From: Massilia frigida
GTDB taxonomy: Bacteria; Pseudomonadota; Gammaproteobacteria; Burkholderiales; Burkholderiaceae_D
Length of the DNA stretch: 48,561 nucleotides
Assembly: GCF_011682175.1 (NCBI RefSeq)
Contig: NZ_WHJG01000048.1
Location: 1 to 48,561 of the forward strand
Reading direction: 5' to 3'
Shown: positions 8,290 to 48,407 of the stretch, one piece after another
Layout of the letters: each line of letters starts with the position of its first letter
Position numbering within the stretch: position 1 is the stretch's first letter
The notes under the pieces: model-generated
What the model was told of the DNA's origin: nothing
Seen by the model: only the letters and a program-made list of their open reading frames with translations
Databases searched by the model: none
Made by a program: the position numbers and the translations under genes

Positions 8290-8290
8290 G

Positions 8291-9235: not shown

Positions 9236-9285
9236 CAGGGCGGCGCGCACGCGCTCATGAACAATCGAATTATCTGGAGAATGCC

Positions 9286-9927: not shown

Positions 9928-9930
9928 ATC

Positions 9931-16943: not shown

Positions 16944-16980
16944 GGGCAGGAAACGTGGTTTTCATTTGGGGATGAAGCAA

Positions 16981-16994
16981 TGTAAGCGGTTACA
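16981..16994. promoter_or_regulatory. LacI-type operator, proximal to GH94
   Basis: TGTAAGCGGTTACA has perfect 5-base arms (TGTAA / TTACA) around a central CG, the form bound by LacI-family regulators. It lies 37 bases upstream of the GH94 start codon, where binding would block the leftward promoter. Confidence 0.8.
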
Positions 16995-17123
16995 TCGTGG
17001 TAAATTTTACATGACATCCTTGTTAAAACTATGAAATTTCGACCATCCGGCGTGTTATTTTCGATGAAAAATTTACAAAAAAACCACGGTGTGTTGCACC
17101 CGATTGGGTTACATTAGGAAAAA

Positions 17124-17137
17124 TGTAATCGGTTACC
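17124..17137. promoter_or_regulatory. LacI-type operator, proximal to lacI
   Basis: TGTAATCGGTTACC matches the other operator in 12 of 14 positions and keeps the AAnCGGTTAC core. It ends 38 bases before the regulator's ATG, so the regulator probably represses its own operon. A partly symmetrical TTACATT / AATGTAA pair overlaps it (17109-17128). Confidence 0.75.
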
Positions 17138-17175
17138 CGACTTCTATGCAGGGGGAATGACAAGGTGGCGTTTTC

Positions 17176-18216: not shown

Positions 18217-18234
18217 CGACAACGGGAGAAATGC

Positions 18235-21102: not shown

Positions 21103-21114
21103 TAAGGGACGTTG

Positions 21115-25512: not shown

Positions 25513-25559
25513 GGCCGCCGGCCGCCATGTCATCGCAGTGAACATCACCAGGGCAAAAC

Positions 25560-27244: not shown

Positions 27245-29059
27245 ATGTATGTGGGCTGTCGCCTGCCCGCCATGCTGCCTGCTCAACTTCAAAAATCGCT
27301 TCGTTTCCCGCCGCGCCGCCTCGCCTTGGCTTCCCTCGTGCGCGCTGCGCTGCTGCTCATGCCGGCGTCCACAGTGTCGGCGCAGCAGCTTCCGGTGCCG
27401 GCAGCAAGCGCGCCCAATCCGCTCGACGTCGCGCAGGAAGGCATCCGGCGGCAAGAGGAACGCCTGCGCGAACAGCAGCAGCAATTGCAGACCAAGGCCG
27501 ACCTGCTGCAACCGGCGCAGGCGGCCGCCGACATGAGCAAGCTGCCCGTCGAGACGCCTTGCTTCCTGATCAAGAGCATGACTGTTGGTAGCAAGCAGGA
27601 GCTCGGCTCGATGGCATCGGCCGTGGCGCCCTTTATCGGCCAGTGCGTCGGGGTGCAAGGGGTGCGCCAGATCGCCGCCGTGCTTGACGCCAGGCTGATC
27701 GCGCAGGGTTACGTCACCAGCCGGGTCAGCCTGCCGCAGCAAAACCTGAGCGAGGGCAAGCTGGTGTTCGCCCTGCACATCGGCCGCGTTGCCGGCGTGA
27801 AGATGGTCAAGGCCGGCGTGCCGGGCGACGTGGCGGACGATGCCTGGGGAACCTGGAAGAACGCCTTTCCGCTCTCCGCCGGCGACGTACTCAATATCCG
27901 CGACCTGGAGCAGGGCGTCGAGCAGATGAAGCGCTTGCCGAGCCAGGCGGTCACCACCCGCATCGAGCCTGGCATCGATGCGGACACCAGCATCGTGCTG
28001 CTCGAACGCCATGCCGGCAGCCTGCTGGAGCGCACGCACGCTTCCGTCAGCCTGGACAATTCCGGTTCGGTGGCTTTGGGCCGGGCGCAGTTGTCCGGTT
28101 CCCTGTCGCTCGACAACGCCGCCGGCCTGAACGATATTTTCAGCCTGAGCAGCAATATCAATGCCCAGCAGCCCAAGCGCGACCATCGCAGCACCAGCCT
28201 GTCGGCCAACTACAGCATTCCCTGGGACTATCACAGCTTCAGCGTGTCGCACAGCAGCAGCCGCTTCGCCCAGTTCGTGCAAGGTACGACAGCGCGTTTC
28301 CTGTCCAGCGGCAGCAGCAGCACGGCCGAGGCCAAATGGAATTACCTGGCGTGGCGCAGCGCGTCGGCCAAGGCCGGCGTGTATGCGGCCATCTCGACCC
28401 GCCGCGCGCAGAGTTTTCTCGACGACGTGGAACTGGTCGTGCAGCGCCGCCGCACCACCGGCGCCCAGGCCGGCCTGACCCTGAAGCAATACCTCGGCCA
28501 GGGCCTGCTCGATCTCGACCTCGGCTACCGCCAGGGCATCGGCCTGGGCAGCGCCGAGGCCGACTATCCGAGCGCGGCCGACGGCGGCCTGACCCTGCGT
28601 CCGCGCATCTATAGCTTCAACGCCTCGTACAGCCAGCCGTTCAAGCTGGCCGAACGCGCACTGCAGTACAGCGCCAGCCTGCGCCTGCAAAAGACCGGCG
28701 ACATGAGCTTGTCGGCCGACCAGATCAGCATCGGCGGGCGCTACAGCGTGCGCGGCTTCGACGGCGACAGCGTGCTGATGGCCGAAAGCGGCGCGATCCT
28801 GCGCCAGGACGTCTCGACCGGCCTGCCATCGTTCGCCGGTATCGACAGCAGTGTATTCATCGCGCTCGACGCCGGCAAGGTCTGGGGGCCGAGCGCCGCC
28901 GGCCTGGTGGGCGACACCCTGGCCGGTTTCGCCGCCAGCCTGCGCGGCAGGTGGAAGTCGCTGGTATTCGATATCAGCCTGGCCACCCCGGTCAGCAAGC
29001 CGGAGCGCTTCAAGACGCGCGCGCTCACGCCGTATGTATCGGTCACGTATTCGCGCTGA
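27245..29059 (+). CDS. TpsB two-partner secretion transporter (FhaC/ShlB/CdiB-like)
   Basis: A 604-residue outer-membrane transporter. The signal region ends near SAQQLP (about residue 47). Then come a charged, Gln-rich plug/linker helix (RRQEERLREQQQQLQTKADLL, about 70-90), POTRA domains (about 100-260; PCFLIKSMTV, GVRQIAAVLDARLIAQGYVTSRV, GDVLNIRDLEQGVEQMKRLPS) and a 16-strand barrel with the VRGF signature at residues 502-505 (YSVRGFDGDS). The family exports one TpsA partner, here the giant gene 73 bases downstream. No clear ribosome binding site precedes 27245; ATG at 27272 is an alternative that still leaves a signal peptide. Confidence 0.93.
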   Translation: MYVGCRLPAMLPAQLQKSLRFPPRRLALASLVRAALLLMPASTVSAQQLPVPAASAPNPLDVAQEGIRRQEERLREQQQQLQTKADLLQPAQAAADMSKLPVETPCFLIKSMTVGSKQELGSMASAVAPFIGQCVGVQGVRQIAAVLDARLIAQGYVTSRVSLPQQNLSEGKLVFALHIGRVAGVKMVKAGVPGDVADDAWGTWKNAFPLSAGDVLNIRDLEQGVEQMKRLPSQAVTTRIEPGIDADTSIVLLERHAGSLLERTHASVSLDNSGSVALGRAQLSGSLSLDNAAGLNDIFSLSSNINAQQPKRDHRSTSLSANYSIPWDYHSFSVSHSSSRFAQFVQGTTARFLSSGSSSTAEAKWNYLAWRSASAKAGVYAAISTRRAQSFLDDVELVVQRRRTTGAQAGLTLKQYLGQGLLDLDLGYRQGIGLGSAEADYPSAADGGLTLRPRIYSFNASYSQPFKLAERALQYSASLRLQKTGDMSLSADQISIGGRYSVRGFDGDSVLMAESGAILRQDVSTGLPSFAGIDSSVFIALDAGKVWGPSAAGLVGDTLAGFAASLRGRWKSLVFDISLATPVSKPERFKTRALTPYVSVTYSR

Positions 29060-29132
29060 TCGGCGCAGCGCAGACAGTTCAGTCCCCCCGCAGTACCCGT
29101 TTGACGCCGTTCAGGCACCCCAAGGACCCATC

Positions 29133-32100
29133 ATGAAATCACCTATCCGCCATCTGTTAAAGAGCAAACAATCGACCTTGACCGCGGCCGACCGGCAGGT
29201 CCAGGCGCAATTGGAGCAGCCGATGGAGGCGGTGGGCCGTGGCGGCCGTCCGTGGACGCGGGTGGTGGCGAGGATGATGATCGTGCTGCAGATCTTGCAG
29301 ACGGCGCTGATCGCGGGACCGGCTTACGCGCAGGTTGTGGCCGCCGGCAACGCGCCGGCCGGGCAAAAGCCGCTGGTCGATGCCGCCGCCAACGGCGTGC
29401 CGATCGTGCTGATCGCGCCGCCAAGCGCGGCCGGCGTGTCGCACAACCGCTACGACCAGTTCAACGTGGATAGCAGGGGCTTGATCCTGAATAACAGCCG
29501 GGAGAGTGTCGGCACCCAGCTGGGCGGTATCGTCAACGGTAATATGCAGTTGGGCACCACCAGCGCCCGCATCATCCTGAACGAAGTCACGTCCGGCAAT
29601 CCGTCGCGCCTGAACGGCTATATCGAAGTGGCAGGGCAGCGCGCCGACCTGGTCATCGCCAACCCCAACGGCATCAGCTGCGACGGCTGCGGCTTTCTCA
29701 ATACCGCCGGCCGCGCCACCTTGACCACCGGCACGCCGCAATACAATAGCGCCGGCCAGCTCGACAGCCTGAACGTGCAGCGCGGCGTGATTAGCATCGG
29801 CGCCCGTGGCTTAAATGCCAGCAATGTCGAGCAGCTCGACCTGCTGGCGCGCGGCATCGTGATCGAAGGCGAGATCTCCACCAAGAACTTGCAGGCCGTC
29901 CTGGGCGCCAACAAGGTCTTGTACGGCACGCTCAAGGCCACCCAGCAGGATGGCAGCGGCAATGCGCCCAAGTTCGCCATCGATATCGCCGACCTGGGCG
30001 GCATGTACGCCAACCAGATCTATCTGGTCGCCACCGAAAAGGGCCTGGGCGTAAACAGCGCCGGCCGCATTGCTTCCCTGTCGGAAAACCTGACCCTGAG
30101 CGCGCAGGGCGACCTGACCCTGAAGGACAATTACAGCAAGAAAGACGTCGACCTGTCCAGCAGCGGCAAGGTGACGTTGGCGGGACAGACCAACGCCGAG
30201 CGCAACGTGCGCATCGCTGCGGCCGAGCGCATTGCCGTCAACAACGGCGCCGTGCTGCGCGCGGAGCAAAGCGTGCTGCTCACCACCGGCCAGATCGACA
30301 ACAGCGGCAGCGTGATCCAGAAGTCCGCCAGCGAGACCCTGGTGCTGGCCGCCGAGCGCATCAACAGCAGCGGCAGCATGTATTCGGCCACCGACCTCAG
30401 TTTGCAGGCCCGGACTATCGACGGCAAGGGCGGCGTCTTGCAGGCAGAGCGCGCCCTGAAGGTGTCCGCCGACAGCATCATGGTGGACCAGCAGCAGTGG
30501 GCCGCCAACGAGGCGGTCACGGTCAAGGCCGGCCAACTGCGCGCTGCCAACAGCGTGCTGGCGGCCGGAACGGATCTGTCCCTCAATGCCAGCGGCGCCC
30601 TGAACATCCAGGGCAGTAGCTTGACGGCCAAAAAGGCCATCGACCTGCGCGGCCAGGGCGTAAACACCGCCGCCGCGACCGTCTCGGCGGCCGCGCTGGC
30701 CATCGATGCTGGCAAGGGCAAGCTGGACAACACCGGCGGCGTGATCTACGCGGCCGGCAACATCGACCTGCGCGCCGCCGGCATCGACAATACGCGCGGC
30801 AAGATCGTCGCGACCGACAAGCTGGCGCTCGATGCCGGTGGTGGCAGGCTCGACAACACGGGCGGCACGCTGGCATCGAAGGATGCCGTGTTCGGCAACG
30901 TCGGCAGCATCCGTAACCGCGAAGGCACCCTGTCCATCACCAGCGACCTGGTGCTGGACGGCGCCCTCGACAACAATAAAGGCAAGCTCATCACCGCCGG
31001 GGCGCTCACGTTCTCCGGTACGTCGCTGGACAATGCCGGCGGCGCCATCCAGGCCGGCAATGCCGTCAGCCTCACCGCCAGCGGCCTGATCGACAGTGCC
31101 GACGGTATCATCCAGAGTACCTCGGCCGGCGTCGCCATCAAGGCTGGGCGCCTCGACAATACCAAGGGCGCGATTGCGGCGGCCAAGGACATTGCCATCG
31201 ATGCCGGCCGCGTGCTCGGGCGCGATGGCGACATCAGTGCCGGCGGCAAGCTGGCCGTCAGCGGCGCGGCACTCGACCTGGGCGGCGCCAGCCTCGCCAG
31301 CAACGGCACGCTCGACCTTGCCGCCAGCGACATCCTGGCCGGCGCTGCCAAGCTGCAAGCCGGGCAGGCATTGACCGTCAAGGCAGGCAATCTGTCGGCC
31401 GCCGGCGCCACGATCGCCTCGGTCGGCAGCGTGAACGTTGCCGCCACCGGCGACGCCCGGCTGGACAAGGCCGCGATTGCCGCCAACGGCAACGTGGACA
31501 TCAATGGCCGCGACCTGCACGCCCAGCAATTGCGCGTGGAAAGTAGCGGCACCGTCGCGCTCAAGGCCGACAGTGTCGACCTGCAAGACGCCAGCCTGTC
31601 CGGCGCGCGCGGCCTCGGCCTGGCGGCCGGCACCTTGCTGATGAAGGGCGGCAGCGCCGTTTCCGGCGGCAAGCTGACCGTGACCGGCCAGAGCCAGCAG
31701 GGCGGCAAACTGTCGGCCGCGGGTGACGTCGAGGTCCGCATGGACAAGCAGCTCGACCTGACTGGCGGCGCCATCCGCGCTGGCGGCGATATTGCGGTGC
31801 GTGCCGAAGGCATCGTCACCGACCAGGCGCTGCTTGGCGGCAAGCACATCGTGCTCGATGCCGGCCTTGGAAGCGTGAGCAACGTGCAGGGCACGATCGT
31901 GGCCGAGTCCGGCGGCGGCACGCGCGCTCCGGCGCTGGTGGTGCGCGGCAATGGCATCGACAACAACCGTGGCGTCCTGTCGTCCGACGCGAATGCCGTG
32001 TTCGACGCAAAAACCCAGGCGTTCGACAACAACGGCGGCAAGGTCGTCGTGAGCGGCGACATGGATTTGTCGGCAGGCGCGCTGAAAAATCGCTCCGGCA

Positions 32101-35100
32101 GCATCGCCACGGGCAGCAGCATCGTCATGCGCGGCAACGACGTCGACAATACCGACGGCCAGCTGCGTTCCGGCAAGGATGTCATCATCGAAGCGAACGG
32201 CCAGCGCCTCGGCAACGACCGCGGCGTGATCGAGGCGCAGGGCACGATGACCCTGCTGGCAGCCGACTTGAGCAATATCGGCGGCCGACTCGCCGCCAAC
32301 CAGACCCTTAACCTGACTGCCGGTGCACTGAATAACAGCGGCGGCACGGTGGCGGCCGGCAAGGACCTGACCCTGAGCGTGAGCGGCGTGGCCAACAGCG
32401 GCAACGGCAGCTTGAACGCGGGCGGGCCGGTCAGCATCAGTGCCGGGCGTTTCGACGCGGACGGCGCACAGATCTCGTCGCACGAGCAGATCGTCATTGC
32501 AGCCGGCCAGGGCATGTACCTGGACCAGAGCACTATCCATGCCGGCGGCTCGGTCGATCTGTCCGCCAACAACATGCAAGCGAAGGGCGCGACTATTCTC
32601 AGCAACGGCGCCATCGCCGTTAGCGGACGCGACAGCGTCAACCTTGCCGGCAGCGACATCAACGCCAACGGCGCGGTGACCGTCAAGGCCGCCAACGGCG
32701 CCAGCCTGCAAGGCACGCAGATTGCGAGCAATGCCGAACTGCGCATCGACGCCGCCAACATCGACGGCGGCGCCAGCCGCCTGTCGAGCGCGGGCGACCT
32801 GGACTTGCATGCGGGCACGGGCGGCATCGTCCTTGCTGGCGCGCATGTGGCCAGCGGCGCCGGCCTGCGCATCGACGGCAAAGGCATCGATGCCGCCAAC
32901 GCAACCCTGGCGGCAAAGAGCGATATCGCGCTCGATACGCGCGGCGCGGACTACAAGGCTGACGGCAGCCGGCATCGCAGCGAGAGCGGCGGCATCACGC
33001 TCAAGGCCAACAATATCGACACTGGCGGCAGCGCCGGCCAGATTGCCGACAGCGGCTTCATCGCCAAGGGCAGCATTGCGCTCGAAGCAAGCGGGCAGAT
33101 TAACGTTGCCAACAGCACCATTTCTTCCGGCGGCAATGTGGCGCTCAATGCCGGTCAGGGCATCAGCACGGCTGGCGGCGCGGTATCGGCCATCGGCAGC
33201 GCGGCCTTGTCGGGCGCCACCATCAACAATGCCGGCGGCGCGATTGCCGCCAACGGCGCGCTCAAGCTGCTTGCCCGCGACGGCGGCATCGACAATGGCG
33301 GCGGCAGCATCTTGTCGCGCGACCAACTGACATTGCAAACGCACACCGGCCTCGACCGCATCGCCGGCAAGCCGGTTGCGGCCGGCGGCGCCACCGACCT
33401 GAACAACAAGGGCGGTTCGATCGTGGGTGTGGCCGGGGCCGTCATCAACAGCGGCACCATCGACAATAGCGGCGGCAAGATCGCCAGCGGCAACACCCTG
33501 GTGCTCGACCTCGGCAACAGCGACTTCAAGGGCGCCAAGGGTAGTGTGCTCAGTGAAAAAGCGCTGACCCTGACCGCGCGCCAGATCGACCTGAGCGCCG
33601 GCCAGCTGCGCGCGGGCAAGGGCGTGAGCCTGTCCGCCGAGCAGATCGTGGCGCAAGGCGCGGCCATCAGCGCCGCCGCCGGCGACCTGCTGATCGACAG
33701 TAAAGGCGGTTCCATCGACGCCAGCCACGCGGACATGCTGGCCTCGGGCCTGCTGAGCCTGAAATCGGGCGCGGCCGACCTGGCGCACGCCAAGCTCTCC
33801 AGCGGCGCCGGCACCAGTATTGCCAGCGCAGCGCTCGATGCGCGCCAGGCCATCATCCAGGCCGGCGGCGATATCGCCATCGCCAGCGGTGCGGCGATCA
33901 ACGCCCAGGACGCGGCCATCGGCGCCGGCGGCAAGCTGGACGTGACCGCCAGTTCGCTCAAGGGTGGCCAGTATTCGGCATTCAAGGACTTGACGGTGGT
34001 GACCACGGGCGCCATCGACTTGGGCAAGAGTGCCCTGCCGGGCGCGCAGGGCGGTGCCTTCCTCACGGATGCGGCGCTCAATGTCAAGGCGCAGGGCGTC
34101 ATCCTCGATGATGGCCGCGCGATCGGCAAGAACATCACGCTCGACGTCGGCAACGGCGTGCTGAGCAATCGCGGCGGCACCATCCTCGCCACCGATGCCG
34201 CCGCCAACGCGCCGGCCCTCAAGCTCACCAGCAATGGCATCGACAGCACGGGCGGCAGCATCGTCAGCAACGGCGACCTGCTCATCAACAGCGGCAGCGG
34301 CGCCGTGGACAACAGCAAGGGCACGCTTGGCGCCCTGGGAAAACTCGACATCGTGGCCGGCAAGCTCGGCAACGCGGGCGGCAAGGTGGTGGCCAACACG
34401 GCGCTCACGATGCAGGTGCAGGCCATTGACAACCATGCCGGCAAGATCCAGGCCGGCACCAGCCTGAACGTCAAGGCGGGCGATATCGACAACCGCGCCG
34501 GCACCCTGGCCGGCAGCACCGGCATTGAACTGACGGCCGGCAAGGTCGACAGCAGCGACAAGGCGCTGATCGGCAGTAATGGCAACGTTACCTTGCATAC
34601 CAAGGGCTTGGACAACAGCGGCAGCCAGGTCAAGGCCGGCGGCAAGCTGGCCATCGATACCGGCGCGGCGGGCGCCATCACAAACGTCAAGGGCAGCCTG
34701 GCCAGCGATGGCGGCATGACCCTGGCCAGCGCCGGCACGCTCGATAACAGCGGCGGCGCCATTGCGGCCGGCGCGGGCCTGGACGCGCAGATCCAGGGCG
34801 CGCTGGTCAACAAGGATGGCAATATCGTGGCCGGCAAGAACCTCGGACTGAGCGTAACGGACGGGCTCGCCAATCGGGGCGGCGCCATCCAGGCCGGCGG
34901 CGACATGCTGGTTGCCGCAAACAAGGGCATAGCCAACGATGCCGGCAAGCTGATCGCCAACGGAGCGCTCGACATCGACGGCGCCTCGCTCACCAGCAAG
35001 AAAGGCTTGATCAGCGCGGGCAAGGACTTGACGCTCGACGTCAAGACCCTCGGCGGCGCGCTCGACAACCAGGGCGGCCAGATCCAGGCCAGCGGCAAGG

Positions 35101-38100: not shown

Positions 38101-41100
38101 ACGCGGCGGCCATTGATAACAGCAATACCAACAACGGCGCGTTCGACAAGGGTTTGCTGGCATCGAACACGGTGACCGTGAATGCGGCCACGGTGGGCAA
38201 TGTGAATGGCGCGATCGTGGCGCTGAAGAACCTCAAGGTGGCTGGTTCGGCCAGTATCAATAATACGGGCGGGCAGCTGAGCGGCGAAGCAGTCACGATT
38301 GACACGGCTGACTTCATCAATACCAGCGGGCGCACCGATGCCACCACCATGCTGACGGCGACCATGAAGAAATTCAGCGCCGACGGCGTGATGGCATCTA
38401 CCGGTACCCTGCGCCTGGCCATGGATGGCGATTACACCAACGGCGGTATCGTGGCGGCCGAGAACAATCTGGAGATTGTTCTCAATAACGGCAAGTACAC
38501 CAACACCAAGATCGGCACGATCAGCGCGGCCAAGGATCTGCGCCTGTCGGCCACGGAACTGAATAACTACGGCTCGATCAGCGCGACCAATACCACGCTC
38601 GATGTCGGCACGTTTACCAATGCCGGCACCGGCGTAGTCAATTCGATCGGCACCACGACGGTCACGGGTGGCAGCACCTTCAATAGCGGGCGGATTTACG
38701 GCGGCAACGTGGTGATGGGCGGCGCGGTGACGAATGAGAAGGATGCCACCATCGGCGCGCGCGATATCTTGACCATGAGCGGCTTGTTGATCAATAAGCC
38801 GGGCGCTAATGTGCTCAGCCTTGGCAATATGACGCTGGGTAGCGTGGTCAATGCGGGCGCGCGAATCGAATCAGGTGCAAACCTGGACATCGGCAGCCTG
38901 ACCAACCTGAATTGCGTGAACGGTGGCGTCGATAACGGCCAGGGCGCATCCAATTGCAGCGCGTATGGATTAAAGGGCGGAATTGCTTATTCCGACCAGA
39001 CCACGGTTGTGCCAGTCAATTTCATCACTATTACGCCCAGAGGCTCGAATACTGCCTATACGCTGGACCAGTTGTCGTACTACACGGACGACCAGCACTA
39101 CTATATTCATCCTAGCGATTTGCACAACAAGATCGAGGATTACACCAAGACCACGATCGACACTCGCACCATTGTGAAATCGGTTGTCGACAGCTCAAAC
39201 GCCGGATTGGTAACGGCGGCGGGTAATATCACGGCGAAAGCGGCGATGAACGTCGACAGCCAGATTGTCGCCGGCGGTAACGTCTCCATCACCGGCGCCG
39301 CTGAAGTTGGGAATGGCGTTGAGAAAACGCCAGGCGATACGGTCAACATCTCTACCCAGGGAACCCAGGCCATCACGGAAAATGGAAGTAGCTATTTTAC
39401 CGAAGTCAAGAATGATTGCGACTGGAAGGGGAAATGCAAACACTATCGAGTAGATAGCAAATTCACGGCCATTCAGGACGTCGGCCCTACAACATCGATC
39501 GATGTTGCCGCCGTTTTGTACGACAGTGGCGGCATGGCGCCCGCGCCGGCCGCTCCTGATGACGCAACGATTGCCCCTGCCGATCCGGCGAAAGTCGTCG
39601 GTACCCTTGGCACCGGCGTAGCCGGCAATCTCACCGCCAGCAGTGGCAACACTGCGGCGGGCGACGTGACGACTACGAAGACGGGTAACGTCGCCACCTA
39701 CACGACCGGCAGCACGACCGTCGGCATCAACGTCGGCGCGATCAATGCCGATACCGCGGTGCAGGGCGTGGCAGCTCAGGGCGTTAGCGCCGGCGGCACG
39801 CCATCGGTTGACACCTCCGTCGCCGCTGGCGGCACCAAGATCGACGCCCAGGCAGCCGGTACAGCCGGAGGGGCCGGCCCGGTCTCGACCGACGCCCAGC
39901 AACAAGGCAGCGGCGGCGCAACGGACGTTACGGTCGGCACGAGCGCCCAGCCTATCGTCAAGGGCCAGGTGGCAGGCAATGCCCTGCCTGGCAGCGTCAT
40001 CGCGGGCAATGCCCGCGCAGCCCAGCAAACGGCCATCGGCGACCTGACGACCTCGTTCGCCAAATTCGCCGCCGCACGTCCCGTGACCGTGGCGGACAAG
40101 AAAGTCGATGCCGGGGTCTTTGGCCCGAACACGAAAGACATCAACGGCCGGGTCACCGATCCGAAGGTGCCGAACGTCACCCTGACCAGCAACACGGACT
40201 GGAAAGCGCCGACCGGCAATCTGTTCTCCCTGAAACCGGGCGAGGGCGCCGGCTACCTGGTCGAAACCGACCCGCTGTTCACCGATAAAAACAAATGGAC
40301 CGGCAGCGATTACTTCCTGGACCAGCTTGACATTGATCCGCAGCGCACCCTGAAGCGCTACGGCGATGGTTTTGTCGAGCAACGCGCGTTCGCCGACCAG
40401 TTGATCAACATCACCGGGCGCAACAAGCTGTCCGGCTACGAGAACAACGAACAGGCGTTCAAGGCGTTGATGGATTCGGGCGTCGCCTACGCCAAACAGT
40501 TCCAGCTCACGCCTGGCGTGGCGCTGTCCGAGCAGCAGATGGCCCAGCTGACCACCGACATCGTGTGGATGCAGGAAGAAACCGTCAGCCTGCCGGACGG
40601 CAGCACCACCACGGCCCTGGTACCCAAGGTCTACCTGCGCCGTCCGCAGCAGGGCGACCTGTCGACCGGCGGCGCCCTGATCGCCGGCGACAACGTCACC
40701 ATCCGCAACCAGAACGGCGGCATCAGCAACAGCGGCACCATCCTGGCCGGCTACGCCAATGCGAAGCCGACCGACATGCATGGCGCGGTCACGCTCGACG
40801 CCCGCAATGTCAGCAATAGCGGCACCATCGCCGGCAATGTGATCGACATCAAGGCGGCGAACGATATCGCCAATGTGGGCGGGCGCATTGCCGGCCTGTC
40901 CAACAAGGGCGTGGACGGCAGCGCCACCGACGACAGCCGGGTCACGCTCAATGCCGGCCGCGACATTCTCGTGGCCAGCACGACGCAGACGCGCAGTATT
41001 GACACGGTTGGCAACAACGGCACCAGCACATCGAGCCGCACCAACATCGACAGGGTCGCCACCATTGCCGGCGGCAATGTGCTGATCGACGCCAGGGGCA

Positions 41101-44100
41101 ATTTCACGGCGCGCGCGGCGCAGGTCGACGCAGCCGCCAATCTCAGTGTATTGGCCGGCAAGAACATCGATATCGCCGGCGTGGAAGAAAAGCACGCGCT
41201 GTTTGTGCCGCTCGGCGGCAACACGATGGGCCGGACTGGCTACACCAACGAGGCGAGCGTATCGAACGTCGGCAGCAGCCTGACCGCCGGCAACAACGCC
41301 ACCATCAGGGCGGGCGGCGACGCTACGCTGAGCGGTAGCCGTGTTGCTGCCGCCAATGACGTGAACATTGGCGGCGCCAACGTCACCATCTCGGCGGTCA
41401 AGGACCGCACCCTCGTCGACGTACAAACGGTGGGCCGCAAGCAGTACGACCGTGCCATGAACGATGACGAAAGCCTGAGCGGCGGCTCCGTCAGCGCCGG
41501 CCACAACGTCACGATCAGCGCCACCGGCGTGGCAAGCGGCCAGCAAGACAAGGATGGCAAGGCGATGGCCCAAGCCGGCACCGGCAATCTGGTCCTCAAC
41601 GCGGGCACCATCGTGGCCGAAACCGGCGTAGCGAAGCTGCTGGCGAACAACGACCTCACGGTCCAGGCCATCACGACCGAGCACGACAGTCTGCGCGAGA
41701 GCTACAGCAAGAGCCGTACGCTTGGTGGCAGCAAGATGTCGAGCAGCACCAGCAGGGAGAGCTTGCAGCAGGTGACCGGCAGCCGAGTCGTTGGCGACAG
41801 CGTGCTGGTCGAGGCGGGCAAGGACTTGACGGTCAGCGGCAGCATGATTGCAGGCGTGAACGAGGTATCGCTGAAAGCGGTCGCCGGCAACGTCACGATC
41901 AAATCGGCGGAGGAAATCTACAAGGAGCGCAACAGCGCCGAACAGAAGCAGTCCGGGTTCACTGCGGCTTATGCCGGCGGCGCGGCCAGTGTGGGCTTCA
42001 GCAAGTCGAGTGGATCGAGCCAGTCGGCGCTGGACCTGGTCAGCCAGGTCGGATCGACCGTCAACTCCACCAACGGCAAAGTCAACGTGACGGCCGGCGA
42101 AGGCATCAAGGTGGTGGCGTCGGAACTCAAGGCCAAAGCCGACCTGAGTTTGAGCGGCAAGACGGTCGACCTGCTGGCAGCGCAGAACACCAGCGACGAG
42201 CGTAGCTCGTACACGTCGGCATCGAAAGGCATCTCGGTCGGGGTGACGCTCGATCCGAAGGCGGCGTTCAGCAATGCGCGTAAGGAAAGCGAAAAGGGCA
42301 ACAGCGCCGACAGCGGCGTGGGCAAGATCACCAAGCGCGCGGACGGGGTGGGGGAAGGCTTCCTCGCTGCAATTAACGGCGTGGTATTGCAAGGCAATTC
42401 GCGCAGCGCGGCCGGGACCAAGGATCATGTCAGCAGCACCGCCGAGGTCAGCACGCTCAAGGCGGGCGGCAACCTGCGCATTGACGCCACTGGCGGCAGC
42501 ATCACCAGCGAAGGCGCGACCCTGAAGGCCGAAGGCAATGCCACGCTGTCCGCCAAGGACAGCATCGTTCTCGATGTTGCCCATAGCACCGAGAGCGAAG
42601 GGCAGGACAACAAGGCCAAGGGCTGGAGCATCGATTCGCGCGGCAGCCTGCCGGTTGGCATGTTCAACAACAAGGACAATGGCAAAGGCAGTGCCGATAC
42701 GATTAGCGGCACCACCTTGTCGGTGGGCGGCAATGCCACGCTCAAGAGTACCGATGGCGACATTGTTCTCACGGCCGCTTCGGTGGTCGCCGACAAGGGC
42801 AATGTCGACATCGCCGCCGGCAGGAACCTGACCATTCAGAGTGGCCAGAACACCGTCTCGAACGATAACCACAGCAACAACAAGGCCATCGGCAAGGTGG
42901 TTGTATCCGACACCGAACGCTTTGCTGGATACAACAACATCAAGAAGAACGGCAGCAATGACGCGCTCACCCAGGTGCAGTCCGGCGTGGCCAGCATCAA
43001 CGGCAATATTACGTTGAAGGCAGGGGAGAAATACACACAGACCAGCAGTAATGTCATTGCGAACAAGGATGTGAGCGTGACTGCCAAGTCGATCGACATT
43101 GGCACGGCGCTCAATACGAGCAATAACGCGCAGGACAGTTCGGACCTGAAGATCGGCGGCTTTGCGCGTATCAGCTCGCCGTTGATCGACCTGGCCAACA
43201 ACCGCAAGGCGGCCAAGGAATCCGACGGACGCCTGTCGACCATGCAAAACATGGCCGCCGCAGCGAACGCATATCAGGCGGTTGCTGCGGGGATCGGTGG
43301 CAGCGGCACCCTGTTCAAGGCCGAGGCTGGCATTGGCATTGCCACCGCCAAGAGCCGCGACCAGAGCAGCGGCAGCATGGCAATCGGCAGCACGCTCACG
43401 GGCACCAGCGGCAATGTGACGCTGACCACGACCGAAGGCGATATCAAGGCCACCGGCGCTGGCATAACCGCCGGCAAGGAACTGAAACTCGACTCCGCGC
43501 GCGACATCGTCCTGCAATCGGCCACCAGCCAGATGAGCAGCGAAGGGAGCAACAATAACGCCGGCGTCGAGGTGGGTGTCGGGGTCCAGGTCGGTGCGCA
43601 GACCGGTACCTATGTGTACGCCACCGCCAACGTGGGCAAGGGCGAATACGATAACAATGCCACCGTTCATACCAATACCAGGCTGACTGGCGCTACGGTC
43701 AATATTGCCTCCAAAGACGACACCACGCTCAAGGGCGCAGTCGTCAAGGGCGACAGCATCACCGCCAATGTCGGCGGCAAGCTGGCGATCGAGTCCTTGC
43801 AGGACACCAACAAGCAGCACAACGAGCAAACCAACGTCGGTGCGCGGGTGCAGTTGTCGTTCGGCAGCGCGTGGGAAGCGTCGGGCAATATCGGCCATAC
43901 GTCGGCGGATGGCAGCAGCAAGGTCGTGCTGGAGCAGTCGGGCCTGTTTGCGGGCGACGGTGGCTATCACGTCAAGGCCGACACGATTGCCCTGAAGGGT
44001 GGCGCAATCGGTAGCACCAACGCGGCCAATTCGGCATTGACCACCAAGGCTATCACGTTCCAGAACCTGGACAACGAGATGGACTACAAGGCCATGTCGC

Positions 44101-47087
44101 TCAGCGCATCGGGCGGATTTACGGCTGGTGCGGTCAAGGGAGCCGCGCCGGGGACGCAAACCAGCACCGGCGCACGCAACCCGAATGCCACGCCCGGCCT
44201 GCCGATGCTGGACAAGGGCAAAGACAGTTCGACGACCTATGCAACGCTGACGGATGGCAAGATCAACATCGGCGGCAAGGACATGAGCAGTGCGGCAGAA
44301 CTCGGCGCGCATACCGATCTGGCAACCGCGAATAAAGCAGTCGACCCGTTGAAAGACATGAAGGCCGTGATGGCCGATCAGAAAGCGATGGGCGCGGCGG
44401 CAGGCACCTTGATTGCGACCGGCCAGCAGATCAACGGCGATATCGCACGCGGAGCGGCGAATCGACTGAGTCTGGCGGAAGCGGGCGTCAAATCTTCCCA
44501 AACGGAAATCGAGCGCGCTCGGGCGGTATTGAGTGATCCAGCCAGTACGCCGGAACAGCGTGCGCTTGCAACGTCGGATATTGCTGCGGCGACCCGGAAC
44601 CTGACTGCGGCAACGACTGCGCAAGACGTCGCCAACACCGACGTGAAGAACTGGGGACCGAAGGGTGACTATTCGCGCGCACTGACCGTTGCGACGGGCT
44701 TGCTGGTTGGCGGCTTGTCGGGACAAGGCACCGGGCAGCTCGCCGCCGGCGCCAGCGCGCCGTATGTGTACAAGGCGATTGGTGACCTTGCACAGACGAT
44801 GACCAAGCCGTATACCGATGCCCAGTTGCTGAAGACGGCGACCGAAGGACGACTTGCCGCCGAGACGGATCCGGCAAAGCGTGCAACGCTGGAGCAGACC
44901 TTGGCGCAGGCCGGCGCCACCATGCTCCAGTTCCAGGGGCAATATGACGATTGGAAAGATGGCAGCCTTTACAAGGCTGGCCTGCACGCGGCCGCAACCT
45001 CGATCCTGAGCCAGGTGGGCGGTGGCGATGCGCTGAAAGGTTTCGTGGCGGGCAGCTTGAATGAATTGAAGAGTCCGTTGATCGATGAATTGACGAAGGG
45101 GCTTGGGCCGACCGAGAAGAAATTTGTAGCGGATCTGAGCAGCGTGGTGGTCGGGGCCGCAATCGGTAACGCGCAGATGGCAGACTTGACGTTATCCGCA
45201 GAGTTAAATAATCGCCAATTACACACAGCAGACTATGAAGCGGCGGCGCGACTTGCAAAACTAAGCAAAGGCAAGTATTCGGAAAAAGAATTGCTGGATG
45301 CACTACGTTGGTCTGGTGTATCCGACGGGCGTCAGTTATTGGTCGAGCCCGAGCACCTTGAGTCTTATGCGGTTCACCCGACAAGTGGCCTGGTTGTCGC
45401 CATTCCCGGTGATGCCACCGAAGGATGGAAACCGCTTCACGAAGCTGCGCCGGGCATGTCGTTTACTGCCATCCCCGGCGACCAGCTGTTGTTGAGGGAA
45501 AAGTTGCCGCCCGCACCAACAAACGACATCTTGAAATTTATAAAGGCCAACACCGACGGGGCTAGCCCGTATGTTTTTGCTGCGCCCTCGAAACCGGCAG
45601 TGTCAAGTGGCCCACGTCTACCGCCGCCTCCTGATAAGTTGACGCGCGGGACCGTGATGGTCGACGGAAATTTGTATTTCCCATTGCTCGGAGATTGCCC
45701 GCTCGGCTGTATGGACCGGGTCGCGCGTGCCATCAAGGATCCAGGTACCGCAGAATATCTGCGCGCCTTGGATGAAAAAGCAAAGCGCGATGCGGTATTG
45801 AACGGATTGAGCTTGTTGAATCCATTCACGCGCGGTATGGGGCTAGTTCCTGGCAATGCGGTGAGAGCGACGGGCCGACTTGGAGTTGCGGCCGAGGCCG
45901 GTCCGGGCGCAGCCGCATTCGGCTCAGCCTTGCGCGGAGCGGAAGAGGTTGCGATTGTCCCTGGCTTGGCTAATGGTATGCGAGGCGCAACTACGGCTGA
46001 AATTGACGCGGCGTTGGATACTGCAGTTAAAGCTAAGACTGCTACTCCTCCAGTGCCGCCCGCAATTGGGCGTGACGCCGTCGACGATTTCATAGCGGGA
46101 CTGCCGTCCGATACGAAGAACTCGATTAGCAACGCTACAACGGTGGGAGGTGAAGGCAGCTCCGCTGTCATGAGCCAGACTGAAGTGCTCCGGCAAAACA
46201 TAGCGCCGTGTTGTTTTGCGCCAGGTACGCAGGTGGCAACTCCAAACGGATACGTTGCCATTGAAGCACTGAAACAGGGCGATCTGGTATGGACTAGGCG
46301 TGAAAATAACACTGGCGATGTGTTTGCGGCAACCGTGACGGCAACGCATATTCGGGACGATCAGCCAATTTATCGGCTTGTCTTGAATAAGCAGAGGAGC
46401 GAAGGCCAAAGCCAGGAAGAAATATTGCTGGTCACTCCGGGGCACCCGTTCTACATTGTCGGTAAGGGATTTGTCTCGGCCATTGACCTAAGGGCAGGCG
46501 AAAAGCTCACCGTGCGTGATCTATCGGACCATGCGGTGACGGTTGTGTCACTTGAATTGATCGAGCGACAGGGGCGTACGCATAACCTCACCGTTGACAT
46601 AGGTCATACTTTTTTTGTTGGAGCTTTTGAAACGTGGGTACACAATGTCGGACCGTGCGTCTCTGGCTGCGCGAATGGCACCTGTACGGTACACGTCTTC
46701 GAGGTTCCTGGACGTGTTCAATCTAGGATAAATATTCCATTTCTCCGAGCTGCCACCACGCCATTAAGGGGAAACTCAAAAGAACCGGTATCTGCAGGGT
46801 TTAAGCACGTTTTAGAGGGGCATTTCAACCGAGAAATTTCTAATAACCGATCTATATTTACAATTGCGCCTGATGAGTTAAAAGAGCTTTTGCAAAGTTC
46901 GACCGTCGTTAAGTCGCCAGTTACTGGAATAGACGGGGGGCAATTCGTGCGGACTGTCGATGTTGGACGTGAGATTGGTTTAACAACTAAAAAAGAAGGT
47001 GGTGCGCCTACCTCGGTTATTACCGTATTCACAGATCGTGGAGGTAATTTAATTACTGCTTATCCGGTAAGGGGAGTAAAGAAATGA
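29133..47087 (+). CDS. Giant TpsA / CdiA-like filamentous haemagglutinin with HINT-toxin C-terminus (5,984 aa)
   Basis: Starts at MKSPIRHLLKSK; AAGGA stands six bases before the ATG, while the frame upstream to 28851 overlaps the TpsB gene. Order: extended signal (1-66), TPS secretion domain (about 67-330, HNRYDQFNVDSRGLILNNS and NPNGIS near 177), thousands of residues of FHA-1 repeats built on DNTGG/DNSGG units (about 330-3250), a cysteine-containing segment (about 3255-3340), a Thr/Gly/Ala-rich linker (about 3460-3640), a block DPLFTDKNKWTGSDYFLDQL near 3712, FHA-2 repeats (about 3850-4980), a pretoxin helical region, NNRQLH at 5359-5364, a HINT domain (about 5694-5838) and the terminal toxin candidate (5839-5984). 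It is exported by the TpsB partner and should form a surface filament delivering the tip to neighbouring cells. The closest known system is contact-dependent inhibition. The last gene overlaps by four bases. Confidence 0.9.
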   Translation: MKSPIRHLLKSKQSTLTAADRQVQAQLEQPMEAVGRGGRPWTRVVARMMIVLQILQTALIAGPAYAQVVAAGNAPAGQKPLVDAAANGVPIVLIAPPSAAGVSHNRYDQFNVDSRGLILNNSRESVGTQLGGIVNGNMQLGTTSARIILNEVTSGNPSRLNGYIEVAGQRADLVIANPNGISCDGCGFLNTAGRATLTTGTPQYNSAGQLDSLNVQRGVISIGARGLNASNVEQLDLLARGIVIEGEISTKNLQAVLGANKVLYGTLKATQQDGSGNAPKFAIDIADLGGMYANQIYLVATEKGLGVNSAGRIASLSENLTLSAQGDLTLKDNYSKKDVDLSSSGKVTLAGQTNAERNVRIAAAERIAVNNGAVLRAEQSVLLTTGQIDNSGSVIQKSASETLVLAAERINSSGSMYSATDLSLQARTIDGKGGVLQAERALKVSADSIMVDQQQWAANEAVTVKAGQLRAANSVLAAGTDLSLNASGALNIQGSSLTAKKAIDLRGQGVNTAAATVSAAALAIDAGKGKLDNTGGVIYAAGNIDLRAAGIDNTRGKIVATDKLALDAGGGRLDNTGGTLASKDAVFGNVGSIRNREGTLSITSDLVLDGALDNNKGKLITAGALTFSGTSLDNAGGAIQAGNAVSLTASGLIDSADGIIQSTSAGVAIKAGRLDNTKGAIAAAKDIAIDAGRVLGRDGDISAGGKLAVSGAALDLGGASLASNGTLDLAASDILAGAAKLQAGQALTVKAGNLSAAGATIASVGSVNVAATGDARLDKAAIAANGNVDINGRDLHAQQLRVESSGTVALKADSVDLQDASLSGARGLGLAAGTLLMKGGSAVSGGKLTVTGQSQQGGKLSAAGDVEVRMDKQLDLTGGAIRAGGDIAVRAEGIVTDQALLGGKHIVLDAGLGSVSNVQGTIVAESGGGTRAPALVVRGNGIDNNRGVLSSDANAVFDAKTQAFDNNGGKVVVSGDMDLSAGALKNRSGSIATGSSIVMRGNDVDNTDGQLRSGKDVIIEANGQRLGNDRGVIEAQGTMTLLAADLSNIGGRLAANQTLNLTAGALNNSGGTVAAGKDLTLSVSGVANSGNGSLNAGGPVSISAGRFDADGAQISSHEQIVIAAGQGMYLDQSTIHAGGSVDLSANNMQAKGATILSNGAIAVSGRDSVNLAGSDINANGAVTVKAANGASLQGTQIASNAELRIDAANIDGGASRLSSAGDLDLHAGTGGIVLAGAHVASGAGLRIDGKGIDAANATLAAKSDIALDTRGADYKADGSRHRSESGGITLKANNIDTGGSAGQIADSGFIAKGSIALEASGQINVANSTISSGGNVALNAGQGISTAGGAVSAIGSAALSGATINNAGGAIAANGALKLLARDGGIDNGGGSILSRDQLTLQTHTGLDRIAGKPVAAGGATDLNNKGGSIVGVAGAVINSGTIDNSGGKIASGNTLVLDLGNSDFKGAKGSVLSEKALTLTARQIDLSAGQLRAGKGVSLSAEQIVAQGAAISAAAGDLLIDSKGGSIDASHADMLASGLLSLKSGAADLAHAKLSSGAGTSIASAALDARQAIIQAGGDIAIASGAAINAQDAAIGAGGKLDVTASSLKGGQYSAFKDLTVVTTGAIDLGKSALPGAQGGAFLTDAALNVKAQGVILDDGRAIGKNITLDVGNGVLSNRGGTILATDAAANAPALKLTSNGIDSTGGSIVSNGDLLINSGSGAVDNSKGTLGALGKLDIVAGKLGNAGGKVVANTALTMQVQAIDNHAGKIQAGTSLNVKAGDIDNRAGTLAGSTGIELTAGKVDSSDKALIGSNGNVTLHTKGLDNSGSQVKAGGKLAIDTGAAGAITNVKGSLASDGGMTLASAGTLDNSGGAIAAGAGLDAQIQGALVNKDGNIVAGKNLGLSVTDGLANRGGAIQAGGDMLVAANKGIANDAGKLIANGALDIDGASLTSKKGLISAGKDLTLDVKTLGGALDNQGGQIQASGKASIAAKGVGNVDGVIIASDDLMLDAGKALLDNRGGIVQSAKASVAIDAGDIASQGTGSAIVAAGKLTVAGNNIDSGKGLISAGKDLSLIAQGALGNAQGRITSGAHATVQGKGIDNSGALLSAGKTMTVQAGSGTLLNSGGSVLAGETLKLDAGSVHNLGGTLASNGDLTLLADTGGTVDNSAGTIRSAQGSVSLTGGQLRNGAVGAGGVIAAGKDVTISVNGALLNRDGAIEAANKLTIQAGAALDNTNGKLTGAKALAVSANGITSVNGSMLSNGALSANAGTGAFDNSKGIISGGGNTTVNAAGRFDNTDGKITTGANLVATTGAFDNVRGLVSAQGGANLSTAAFDGRKGEVIGQQALTINTQGARFDGSGGRFASNGGVTLATGDAVLTGSTIAAGDSFAIQSLGANTRLDANGIQIAVTKNITVTGADVALNGSSLQAGNTITVAGSTVGLNNAALAANTAVNINGTDVQAAAINISTQGDISLQASNTLDYRNGQFAAGNNAAIYGGGLVATSGAKLAAGKRLSFGMGQQSVDFSALDFTYQFGTDLLVQAMGIRTGGVAISADNLFFDAGTGVLDNTGGTLSATGVIEFKARGMVNSGGLIAADHLVSLDSGNGALINSGGTIASAAGKIGITGSDLLNTNGGNITAADTVTVTTTGLADNAGGNIVADGVVSVESGTLGNAKGQVVSNKDKVAIKAGTFDNNGGLVSAKTALDITTKLGVGNKGGSLVAGLDASIVAKNGVDNTGGVIGAAGKVALTSSTGVVINQGGSIQSDTSTVAIDAGNGIWNQNGDIYGLTGVQARTDANLLNMQGGRIASQGDVKLSSLKGKLDNTDGIVSSGSALIVAAKDVHNAGGVLSGLTSAKVDAESVDNTAGVIEAGTGGIAITAKTLTNDNSGTQRGIVSKGDITISGGTVKQNGGYIGADGKLTIDGTSIDNTGGSTMLALKELSLTATAGINNQDGNIKSALDTTLKAPVLNNVGGTVFANNNLLVDAAAIDNSNTNNGAFDKGLLASNTVTVNAATVGNVNGAIVALKNLKVAGSASINNTGGQLSGEAVTIDTADFINTSGRTDATTMLTATMKKFSADGVMASTGTLRLAMDGDYTNGGIVAAENNLEIVLNNGKYTNTKIGTISAAKDLRLSATELNNYGSISATNTTLDVGTFTNAGTGVVNSIGTTTVTGGSTFNSGRIYGGNVVMGGAVTNEKDATIGARDILTMSGLLINKPGANVLSLGNMTLGSVVNAGARIESGANLDIGSLTNLNCVNGGVDNGQGASNCSAYGLKGGIAYSDQTTVVPVNFITITPRGSNTAYTLDQLSYYTDDQHYYIHPSDLHNKIEDYTKTTIDTRTIVKSVVDSSNAGLVTAAGNITAKAAMNVDSQIVAGGNVSITGAAEVGNGVEKTPGDTVNISTQGTQAITENGSSYFTEVKNDCDWKGKCKHYRVDSKFTAIQDVGPTTSIDVAAVLYDSGGMAPAPAAPDDATIAPADPAKVVGTLGTGVAGNLTASSGNTAAGDVTTTKTGNVATYTTGSTTVGINVGAINADTAVQGVAAQGVSAGGTPSVDTSVAAGGTKIDAQAAGTAGGAGPVSTDAQQQGSGGATDVTVGTSAQPIVKGQVAGNALPGSVIAGNARAAQQTAIGDLTTSFAKFAAARPVTVADKKVDAGVFGPNTKDINGRVTDPKVPNVTLTSNTDWKAPTGNLFSLKPGEGAGYLVETDPLFTDKNKWTGSDYFLDQLDIDPQRTLKRYGDGFVEQRAFADQLINITGRNKLSGYENNEQAFKALMDSGVAYAKQFQLTPGVALSEQQMAQLTTDIVWMQEETVSLPDGSTTTALVPKVYLRRPQQGDLSTGGALIAGDNVTIRNQNGGISNSGTILAGYANAKPTDMHGAVTLDARNVSNSGTIAGNVIDIKAANDIANVGGRIAGLSNKGVDGSATDDSRVTLNAGRDILVASTTQTRSIDTVGNNGTSTSSRTNIDRVATIAGGNVLIDARGNFTARAAQVDAAANLSVLAGKNIDIAGVEEKHALFVPLGGNTMGRTGYTNEASVSNVGSSLTAGNNATIRAGGDATLSGSRVAAANDVNIGGANVTISAVKDRTLVDVQTVGRKQYDRAMNDDESLSGGSVSAGHNVTISATGVASGQQDKDGKAMAQAGTGNLVLNAGTIVAETGVAKLLANNDLTVQAITTEHDSLRESYSKSRTLGGSKMSSSTSRESLQQVTGSRVVGDSVLVEAGKDLTVSGSMIAGVNEVSLKAVAGNVTIKSAEEIYKERNSAEQKQSGFTAAYAGGAASVGFSKSSGSSQSALDLVSQVGSTVNSTNGKVNVTAGEGIKVVASELKAKADLSLSGKTVDLLAAQNTSDERSSYTSASKGISVGVTLDPKAAFSNARKESEKGNSADSGVGKITKRADGVGEGFLAAINGVVLQGNSRSAAGTKDHVSSTAEVSTLKAGGNLRIDATGGSITSEGATLKAEGNATLSAKDSIVLDVAHSTESEGQDNKAKGWSIDSRGSLPVGMFNNKDNGKGSADTISGTTLSVGGNATLKSTDGDIVLTAASVVADKGNVDIAAGRNLTIQSGQNTVSNDNHSNNKAIGKVVVSDTERFAGYNNIKKNGSNDALTQVQSGVASINGNITLKAGEKYTQTSSNVIANKDVSVTAKSIDIGTALNTSNNAQDSSDLKIGGFARISSPLIDLANNRKAAKESDGRLSTMQNMAAAANAYQAVAAGIGGSGTLFKAEAGIGIATAKSRDQSSGSMAIGSTLTGTSGNVTLTTTEGDIKATGAGITAGKELKLDSARDIVLQSATSQMSSEGSNNNAGVEVGVGVQVGAQTGTYVYATANVGKGEYDNNATVHTNTRLTGATVNIASKDDTTLKGAVVKGDSITANVGGKLAIESLQDTNKQHNEQTNVGARVQLSFGSAWEASGNIGHTSADGSSKVVLEQSGLFAGDGGYHVKADTIALKGGAIGSTNAANSALTTKAITFQNLDNEMDYKAMSLSASGGFTAGAVKGAAPGTQTSTGARNPNATPGLPMLDKGKDSSTTYATLTDGKINIGGKDMSSAAELGAHTDLATANKAVDPLKDMKAVMADQKAMGAAAGTLIATGQQINGDIARGAANRLSLAEAGVKSSQTEIERARAVLSDPASTPEQRALATSDIAAATRNLTAATTAQDVANTDVKNWGPKGDYSRALTVATGLLVGGLSGQGTGQLAAGASAPYVYKAIGDLAQTMTKPYTDAQLLKTATEGRLAAETDPAKRATLEQTLAQAGATMLQFQGQYDDWKDGSLYKAGLHAAATSILSQVGGGDALKGFVAGSLNELKSPLIDELTKGLGPTEKKFVADLSSVVVGAAIGNAQMADLTLSAELNNRQLHTADYEAAARLAKLSKGKYSEKELLDALRWSGVSDGRQLLVEPEHLESYAVHPTSGLVVAIPGDATEGWKPLHEAAPGMSFTAIPGDQLLLREKLPPAPTNDILKFIKANTDGASPYVFAAPSKPAVSSGPRLPPPPDKLTRGTVMVDGNLYFPLLGDCPLGCMDRVARAIKDPGTAEYLRALDEKAKRDAVLNGLSLLNPFTRGMGLVPGNAVRATGRLGVAAEAGPGAAAFGSALRGAEEVAIVPGLANGMRGATTAEIDAALDTAVKAKTATPPVPPAIGRDAVDDFIAGLPSDTKNSISNATTVGGEGSSAVMSQTEVLRQNIAPCCFAPGTQVATPNGYVAIEALKQGDLVWTRRENNTGDVFAATVTATHIRDDQPIYRLVLNKQRSEGQSQEEILLVTPGHPFYIVGKGFVSAIDLRAGEKLTVRDLSDHAVTVVSLELIERQGRTHNLTVDIGHTFFVGAFETWVHNVGPCVSGCANGTCTVHVFEVPGRVQSRINIPFLRAATTPLRGNSKEPVSAGFKHVLEGHFNREISNNRSIFTIAPDELKELLQSSTVVKSPVTGIDGGQFVRTVDVGREIGLTTKKEGGAPTSVITVFTDRGGNLITAYPVRGVKK
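35001..35354 (+). repeat. 27-bp exact direct repeat within the FHA-1 array
   Basis: A 27-base unit at 35001-35027, encoding K-G-L-I-S-A-G-K-D, recurs exactly at 35328-35354, 327 bases (109 codons) later. It reflects the repeat architecture of the haemagglutinin and could serve as a site for in-frame deletion or assembly error. Confidence 0.8.
39520..40050 (+). other. Low-complexity Thr/Gly/Ala linker inside TpsA
   Basis: This part of the giant gene codes for about 175 residues dominated by G, T, A, V and S (TTKTGNVATYTTGSTTVGIN, AAGGTKIDAQAAGTAGGAGP). It interrupts the regular FHA repeat pattern and lies between the cysteine-containing segment and the DPLFTDKNKW block. It is probably a flexible linker that separates the outer filament from the part following it. 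Confidence 0.5.
46212..46646 (+). other. HINT (intein/hedgehog-like) autoprocessing domain within TpsA
   Basis: Residues 5694-5838 show the HINT pattern: the first catalytic Cys5694 in CFAPGTQVATPNGYVAIEAL, GDLVWTRRE, the block-B TPGHPFYI with His5771, and the terminal HTFFVGAFETWVHN (His5837-Asn5838). These are the residues needed for N-S acyl shift and Asn cyclisation in inteins. In polymorphic toxins such domains stand directly before the toxin and are thought to release it. The residue after the Asn is Val, not Cys/Ser/Thr, so C-terminal cleavage rather than splicing is expected. Confidence 0.8.
46647..47084 (+). other. C-terminal toxin domain candidate of TpsA (RNase-like)
   Basis: Residues 5839-5984 form a compact module after the HINT domain. 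Visible features are a Cys-containing lead (VGPCVSGCANGTC), FKHVLEGHF with two His, SIFTIAPDELKELLQS, DGGQFVRTVDVG with an Arg, and the closing SVITVFTDRGGNLITAYPV. His early, Arg in the middle and a Thr in a TAYP-like last strand are typical of BECR-fold ribonuclease toxins. This is pattern recognition, not a search result. Base composition is clearly lower in GC than the FHA repeats. Confidence 0.5.
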
Positions 47088-47596
47088 GTGATCGTTTTAA
47101 AGGAATATGGTCGGAATTTCAAGAGAATATTCGAAATTTGGATGAGGGTGCGAGTCCGCGCGAAATTCTAGACGTAATTCTGGATTGGCTCCGGAAGTAT
47201 AAAGAATATTTTTTGCGACCGCCATTCAGTGATTATGGATTTAATCGATTTATAACTTTGGATGCGCCAGATTATCCCGTTGAAATATCATTAATGCGTG
47301 GCGAAGAATTACTTTTTTTTAAAAAACTAGTCTTTAATCAACAAGGAAAAGATAAGGAAAGCATTGCGCGGATTTTACGAGATACTTTTGAGATGTTGCT
47401 CGTACTTGAGATGGATGAAAAGTGCGCTAATTGTGGTCGCGACGGATTGGGTGTGTATTTAAACGAGGAAAATGCCAAGCTGGTATATGAATGCAAGCAA
47501 TGTGGCATTGCAAAATACACTGATGGAGCGAAATTGGACGGCGGGCACTATGTATTTGCTAAAACGGTTGATTTGATTAAAGAAAAACTCATATAG
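47084..47596 (+). CDS. Putative immunity protein with zinc-ribbon-like cysteines (170 aa)
   Basis: The ATG overlaps the TpsA stop codon (ATGA), the classical position of a CDI immunity gene. The product has a predicted helical N-terminal half (SPREILDVILDWLRKYKEYF), a strand-rich centre, and a C-X2-C...C-X2-C arrangement (Cys114, Cys117, Cys137, Cys140; CANC and CKQC) typical of a zinc ribbon. No signal peptide or membrane helix: cytosolic, as needed to neutralise a cytosolic RNase. Base composition is the lowest in the window (15 of 60 bases are G or C in 47281-47340). The assignment rests on position and composition; I do not recognise the family. Confidence 0.75.
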   Translation: MSDRFKGIWSEFQENIRNLDEGASPREILDVILDWLRKYKEYFLRPPFSDYGFNRFITLDAPDYPVEISLMRGEELLFFKKLVFNQQGKDKESIARILRDTFEMLLVLEMDEKCANCGRDGLGVYLNEENAKLVYECKQCGIAKYTDGAKLDGGHYVFAKTVDLIKEKLI

Positions 47597-47680: not shown

Positions 47681-48407
47681 TTAACGGATCATTTCATCCT
47701 CCAGCGGCGCGACGGCGCGGCCGGCCTCGCGGATGGTTTCGTCGATGACGCTGGTACTCAGCCGCAGGTCGAACAGTTCGGTGAAGAATTCCCGGATGCG
47801 CGCACGCGACAGGCGCATGCGCAGCGCCAGAAAGAATGGCACCGGCCAGATGCGGGCCGATCAGGCGCCATTGCCCCAGCGCGACTGCGGCCTAGAACGG
47901 ATCGTCCGGGGCCGCGTGGTGCGGCGCGTGTGTCACATGTCCGCAGTCGCAGGTGCTTGCGTGAAGCAAATGGCGGCTCACCCGCAACCGCAGCCCGGCA
48001 ACGCCGTCGATCTTGGTGGCGATATCGATTTCGTCCCAGCCGGTATAGGCTTGGGCTCCTTCGTGTAGCAGGGCATGGCCGCACACTGCGCATTGGTCGG
48101 CGAAATGGGGAACCGTCGCGTCGATGGCGAGTTGCTGGGTGCGGCCGAAGCCTTGCGCACCCGGTTGCTTGCCAGCCTTCCTAGTGTGCGATTTCCTGCT
48201 CGGCGAGCGGGACTTGCCATGGTTGGTGACCGGCGCGGCTTTGCCGTCATGGGCCGTGCCTTCGGCCTCACTTCCCGTCGGCGGCGCGGCGCCATCCGTG
48301 TCGCTTGATGCCGACTCCGGCAAGGCAGCAACGCCATCGCCCACCTTGAACACAACACGCAGATCGGGATAAGAAATGGTAAAAACGGAACCGTTTCTGG
48401 AGCTCAT
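47681..48407 (-). pseudogene. Broken IS66-family transposase remnant
   Basis: The first 171 codons (MSSRNGSVFTISYPDLRVV ... ) include the IS66 TnpC zinc-finger region: RKAGKQPGAQGFGRTQQLAI, then CAVCGHALLHEGAQAYTGWDEIDIA and CDCGHVTHAP. An in-frame TAG interrupts at 47892-47894. The family's continuation is recognisable (ALGQWRLIGPHLAGAI), then one base is missing near 47850. In the shifted frame FLALRMRLSRARIREFFTEL, FDLRLSTSVIDETIREAGRA and VAPLEDEMIR follow, up to a TAA at 47681-47683. The DDE catalytic portion of the usual ~450-520 residue protein is absent. It is a decayed element adjacent to the toxin cassette. Confidence 0.82.

Follow-up and report, generated by a model that had tools for sequence, protein, structure and literature searches.

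We analysed a 48,561-nucleotide contig of Massilia frigida (NZ_WHJG01000048.1, hereafter the window; source genome G000, 7.79 Mb), in which open reading frames on the plus strand encode, in this order, a TpsB transporter, a giant TpsA effector and a 170-residue partner (Table 1). Gene order and protein lengths, as given by the open reading frames and domain matches, agree exactly with an initial annotation made from the sequence alone, which had proposed a two-partner toxin system with an immunity candidate. The transporter, with POTRA domains and a ShlB-type barrel, is encoded beside the effector gene, and the effector carries an N-terminal two-partner secretion (TPS) domain and haemagglutinin repeats (Fil_haemagg, E 2.1e-44 in a Pfam profile search), as is typical of contact-dependent inhibition (CDI) systems. 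The downstream partner gene is a further CDI trait, recognised here by linkage, and its start overlaps the TpsA stop codon as ATGA. We consider it likely that this is a contact-dependent, CDI-type two-partner polymorphic toxin locus, with a predicted RNase tip that is blocked by a zinc-ribbon partner.

Table 1. Features of the two-partner locus (nucleotide positions in the window; residue numbers refer to the protein concerned)
Feature	Position	Strand	Evidence
TpsB/CdiB outer-membrane transporter, 604 aa	27245..29059	+	ShlB E 4e-84, POTRA_3 E 2e-17, POTRA_2 E 4.9e-13
TpsA/CdiA-type effector, 5,984 aa	29133..47087	+	open frame, TPS domain, haemagglutinin repeats
TPS secretion domain, residues 66-329	29328..30119	+	PF05860 E 1.3e-51
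NNRQLH boundary motif, residues 5359-5364	45207..45224	+	sequence check, end of alignment to displaced G009 module
Pretoxin HINT domain, Cys5694 to His5837-Asn5838	46212..46646	+	PF07591 E 5.9e-16
Cys-bearing linker, residues 5839-5859	46647..46709	+	shared in part with relative bearing another tip; low pLDDT
Predicted RNase toxin core, residues 5860-5984	46710..47084	+	relatives, conservation, predicted fold
Predicted immunity protein, 170 aa, helical N-terminal part and zinc ribbon	47084..47596	+	linkage, model
Partner zinc ribbon, residues 109-147 (Cys114, 117, 137, 140)	47408..47524	+	RPB9-type profile match

The NNRQLH motif was proposed in the initial annotation as the point where the effector changes character, and comparison with relatives bears this out. 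In another genome of the genus (G009), a 5,924-residue TpsA relative (L058), immediately preceded by a 611-residue TpsB-like frame, is 72% identical to the window effector across window residues 1-5209, diverges from there to about residue 5554, and then has the HINT domain and the beginning of the linker in common with it. Its terminal tip is a different one (CdiA_C, PF18451, E 2.4e-18), and the gene downstream differs as well. Further down the same genome lies a displaced 2,383-residue module (L051, 4561-13162) that aligns to window residues 3679-5364 at 92.4% identity, the match stopping exactly at NNRQLH. This module has its own HINT domain and a third tip with an HAE...CxxC pattern, deaminase-like by eye and without a Pfam match, and is accompanied by a SUKH_6-like gene (E 0.00017, below the family cut-off). 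Tips downstream of HINT differ between relatives, that is, they have been exchanged, and recombination may be the cause; a tip conserved across strains, named in the initial annotation as an argument against a toxin, was not what we found. Furthermore, the window-type tip is present in 3 of 100 relatives' genomes, its own included (G000, G006 and, more distantly, G053), and the end of the trunk (residues 5100-5364) in 2 of the 17 genus genomes (G000 and G009, G006 being without it). Since trunk end and tip occur in different sets of genomes, the two are inherited separately, and a conserved trunk with a variable tip is again what is expected of a CDI effector.

The HINT residues Cys5694, His5771 and His5837-Asn5838 and the NNRQLH motif all stand where they had been annotated, and the PT-HINT profile (PF07591) covers residues 5701-5838 with 59.4 bits, the curated cut-off being 27.7. 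A Cys start, a block-B His and a His-Asn end are the motif residues of inteins, and we assign their roles here on that basis. The residue that follows the His-Asn pair is Val5839, and the usual splicing nucleophile is hence missing. A profile search gave 12 PT-HINT matches in 7 of the 17 genus genomes (11 of them above the cut-off, eight in open frames of at least 4,990 residues), and matches also in 2 of 14 control genomes. Nine of the twelve were considered further, G007:C30 and both G005 matches being left out; seven HINT ends could be read, that of L054 by eye, and L056 and L057 yielded none. In six of the seven, His-Asn is followed by none of Cys, Ser and Thr (Val in three, Ala, Ile and Met in one each), the seventh having Thr; by general intein chemistry this pattern would fit cleavage better than splicing. 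The source genome holds a second PT-HINT (G000:C66:54075-54461, L053), part of an open frame of 10,955 residues whose tip and downstream gene both differ from those of the locus. The view that HINT release is exceptional in a type V effector finds no support: apart from these matches in the genus, Zhang et al. 2012 (PMC3482391) name HINT as the protease that processes type V secretion system (T5SS) toxins, and a report on MafB toxins of Neisseria (PMC4524018) gives it as a processing domain. The unusualness of HINT was overstated, and the valuable part of the locus is the tip with its partner. For one PT-VENN effector, a further report (PMC9424206) states that entry into the target cytoplasm requires exact removal of the VENN peptide, and by analogy HINT may serve the same need.

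The 146-residue module annotated after HINT places the toxin boundary about 21 residues too early. Residues 5839-5859 form a Cys-bearing linker that is mostly of low confidence in the structure model, with predicted local distance difference test (pLDDT) scores under 50 at tip residues 1-16 and 21-24, and the predicted toxin core spans about 5860-5984. No Pfam, NCBIfam or PADLOC family matched residues 5839-5984, and a scan of 31 family members against domain families gave no convincing match. Ten families were matched by any of these members at E up to 1; EndoU_bacteria (PF14436) was not among them, and Ntox50 (PF15542) was matched by one member at E 0.088 and not by the window tip at E up to 1. 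Relatives comprised 30 proteins of similar size, 36 loci in species-representative genomes (a sample, found by one peptide pattern) and 61 large proteins including the query. Hosts among the 36 loci include Pseudomonas, Burkholderiales, Neisseria, Acinetobacter, Stenotrophomonas, Myxococcota, Paenibacillus, Enterococcus, Listeria and Chryseobacterium. Upstream regions of ten loci revealed haemagglutinin-type trunks with PT-VENN (L008), HINT (L011) or DUF637 (L013), as well as DUF637/PT-VENN (L021), Rhs (L016, L020 and L031) and LXG (L024) trunks; the scan found only TadE in L006 and no domain in L017. PT-VENN is listed in 54 of the 61 large proteins and PT-HINT in 3; the set is redundant, 27 of its rows carrying the name P. 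aeruginosa and 14 that of S. maltophilia. As far as these data go, the toxin is not bound to HINT. Relatives of the tip also occur in five plasmid records and, at 42% identity, in two short Listeria phage records (OR848241.1 and OR846895.1). Judged from the domain databases searched, the tip appears to belong to an unnamed toxin family of BECR-like fold that extends across phyla and has a zinc-ribbon partner of its own. Window-type tips may already be catalogued as sequence types in a P. aeruginosa CDI survey; the Pseudomonas CDI toxins of unknown type that Mercy et al. 2016 (PMC4725963) tested may or may not include members of the present family.

The initial annotation had named a match to a BECR or other toxin fold as support for its claim, and a structure model of the tip combined with fold comparison placed the tip close to solved BECR/RNase A-like members. 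Seven of the top eight matches are RNase toxins (YxiD-CT, Ykris, BrnT and four colicin D), the eighth (7m5f_C) being a CDI chain with no activity in its title, and RNase A-type proteins, with many angiogenin variants among them, account for 26 of the remaining 42 rows. Conservation was read from two alignments, A1 (22 of the 30 similar-sized proteins and three others) and A2 (24 of the 36 loci, L005, five similar-sized proteins and the window). Candidate active-site residues are His5892, His5897, Arg5940, Thr5975 and Tyr5977: the two His, five residues apart, are invariant in the family, tip position 137 (Thr5975) is Thr in 31/31 aligned members, and at position 139 (Tyr5977) 22 of the 31 have Tyr and 9 have Phe. 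The modelled fold, taken together with the invariant residues, suggests an RNase of BECR/RNase A-like fold, and the invariant His and Thr would fit metal-independent RNases. Function is not fixed by similarity of fold, and such a toxin could act on DNA or another substrate, but the predominance of RNases among the matches and the nature of the invariant residues make a target other than RNA unlikely. The tip differs from its closest known counterparts. YxiD-CT/Ntox50, a BECR tRNase of Bacillus subtilis, is described with a C-terminal His, whereas the present family would have its invariant Thr there, an equivalence taken from the end pair of the fold alignment. CdiA-CT of Yersinia kristensenii (5E3E, RNase A-like) is 16% identical to the window tip and is described with His175, Arg186, Thr276 and Tyr278 as active site (PMC9086364); in comparison, for which only the range ends of the fold alignment are known, the present family has its pair of invariant His and Tyr/Phe at position 139.

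A partner of the same family directly follows the toxin in 32 of the 36 related loci; four loci did not enter this count, L037 because its frame is broken, L038 as masked, L039 as a doubtful relative and L040 as partial. As annotated, the partner is zinc-ribbon-like: its family profile matches RPB9-type zinc ribbons (best E 5.4e-07), and it shows a TFIIS/RPB9-like fold bearing two Cys-x2-Cys knuckles; the model of the whole protein has a mean pLDDT of 92.3. Unlike ribbons of that type, it combines the ribbon with a helical part that gave no convincing match in fold searches, and its gene is linked to that of a toxin; it also differs from YxxD, the immunity protein of YxiD-CT, reported to be Sm-like. 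All four Cys columns are kept in 28 of 34 aligned rows, and in the Enterococcus and Listeria partners (L024, L025, L027 and L029) the second Cys is replaced by Thr. Its linkage to the toxin and their parallel divergence (distance test on 25 pairs) suggest that the partner binds the toxin and probably protects the producer. Zinc ribbons are frequent in transcription and translation proteins, and the neighbour could be a chaperone, an export factor or a regulator of the toxin. We consider this very unlikely, as the gene strictly keeps its place behind that of the toxin, whichever of three kinds of trunk carries the tip. Furthermore, a 30%-identical paralogue without toxin stands elsewhere in the source genome (L052, G000:C122:86000-100000, 1944-10344), where an Rhs gene is followed by an NPP1-domain gene, a SUFU gene and the paralogue. 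No second copy of the tip was found in that genome, and this gene set resembles an orphan immunity array. A literature search over titles and abstract starts, with few subscription journals covered, found no description of a polymorphic toxin whose immunity protein is a zinc ribbon. We also entertain the quite unlikely proposal that the ribbon would fold only with zinc and reach the RNase active site, making protection and self-intoxication tunable by zinc supply; were this true, the Enterococcus and Listeria partners that lost a Cys would be natural zinc-independent forms.

Although the trunk is of the filamentous haemagglutinin type, the notion that the tip is a structural module of an adhesin is almost certainly wrong in view of the swapping of tips, their reuse on LXG and Rhs trunks, the RNase-like fold and the dedicated partner, and neither Pfam scans nor fold comparison gave an adhesin match. 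For a CDI-type toxin locus, we propose the following sequence of events. TpsB, judging by domain content, would export TpsA, and on contact the tip would enter the neighbouring bacterium, as in the CDI family. HINT, with its His-Asn end followed by Val, could cut at Asn5838 by asparagine cyclisation, freeing the tip, the core of which would act as an RNase on tRNA or rRNA, with His5892 and/or His5897 and Thr5975 as putative catalytic residues. In the producer, the partner would bind and block the toxin, and recombination would swap the tips downstream of HINT.

The overall design (CDI-type locus, HINT, swappable tip) is already known, and it is the toxin-immunity family that seems unnamed. The locus shares with CdiB/CdiA/CdiI systems the TPS transporter, the giant TPS effector, the exchangeable C-terminal tip, the downstream partner gene and a displaced tip module in a relative; it differs in having HINT before the tip, a place that PT-VENN takes in the VENN class, and its delivery and toxicity are predictions. 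From PF07591 polymorphic toxins (the T5SS toxins and MafB cited above), which have HINT directly before a variable toxin, it differs in its particular tip and not in kind. The locus adds to polymorphic toxins an apparently unnamed, widely shared toxin-immunity family, in which PT-VENN and PT-HINT carry the same cargo, so that two release modules can be compared on one toxin, and in which the partner lends itself to a test of zinc-dependent immunity.

Upstream of the locus (window 13164-26960), six scanned open reading frames resemble an oligosaccharide-use cluster, with GH94, a TonB-type outer-membrane protein, a glucoamylase-like protein, a solute-binding protein, a permease and GH1. Near the contig end, a 171-residue frame on the minus strand (window 47892-48407), which by eye we take to be like part of an IS66-type transposase, may be the reason why the contig ends there.
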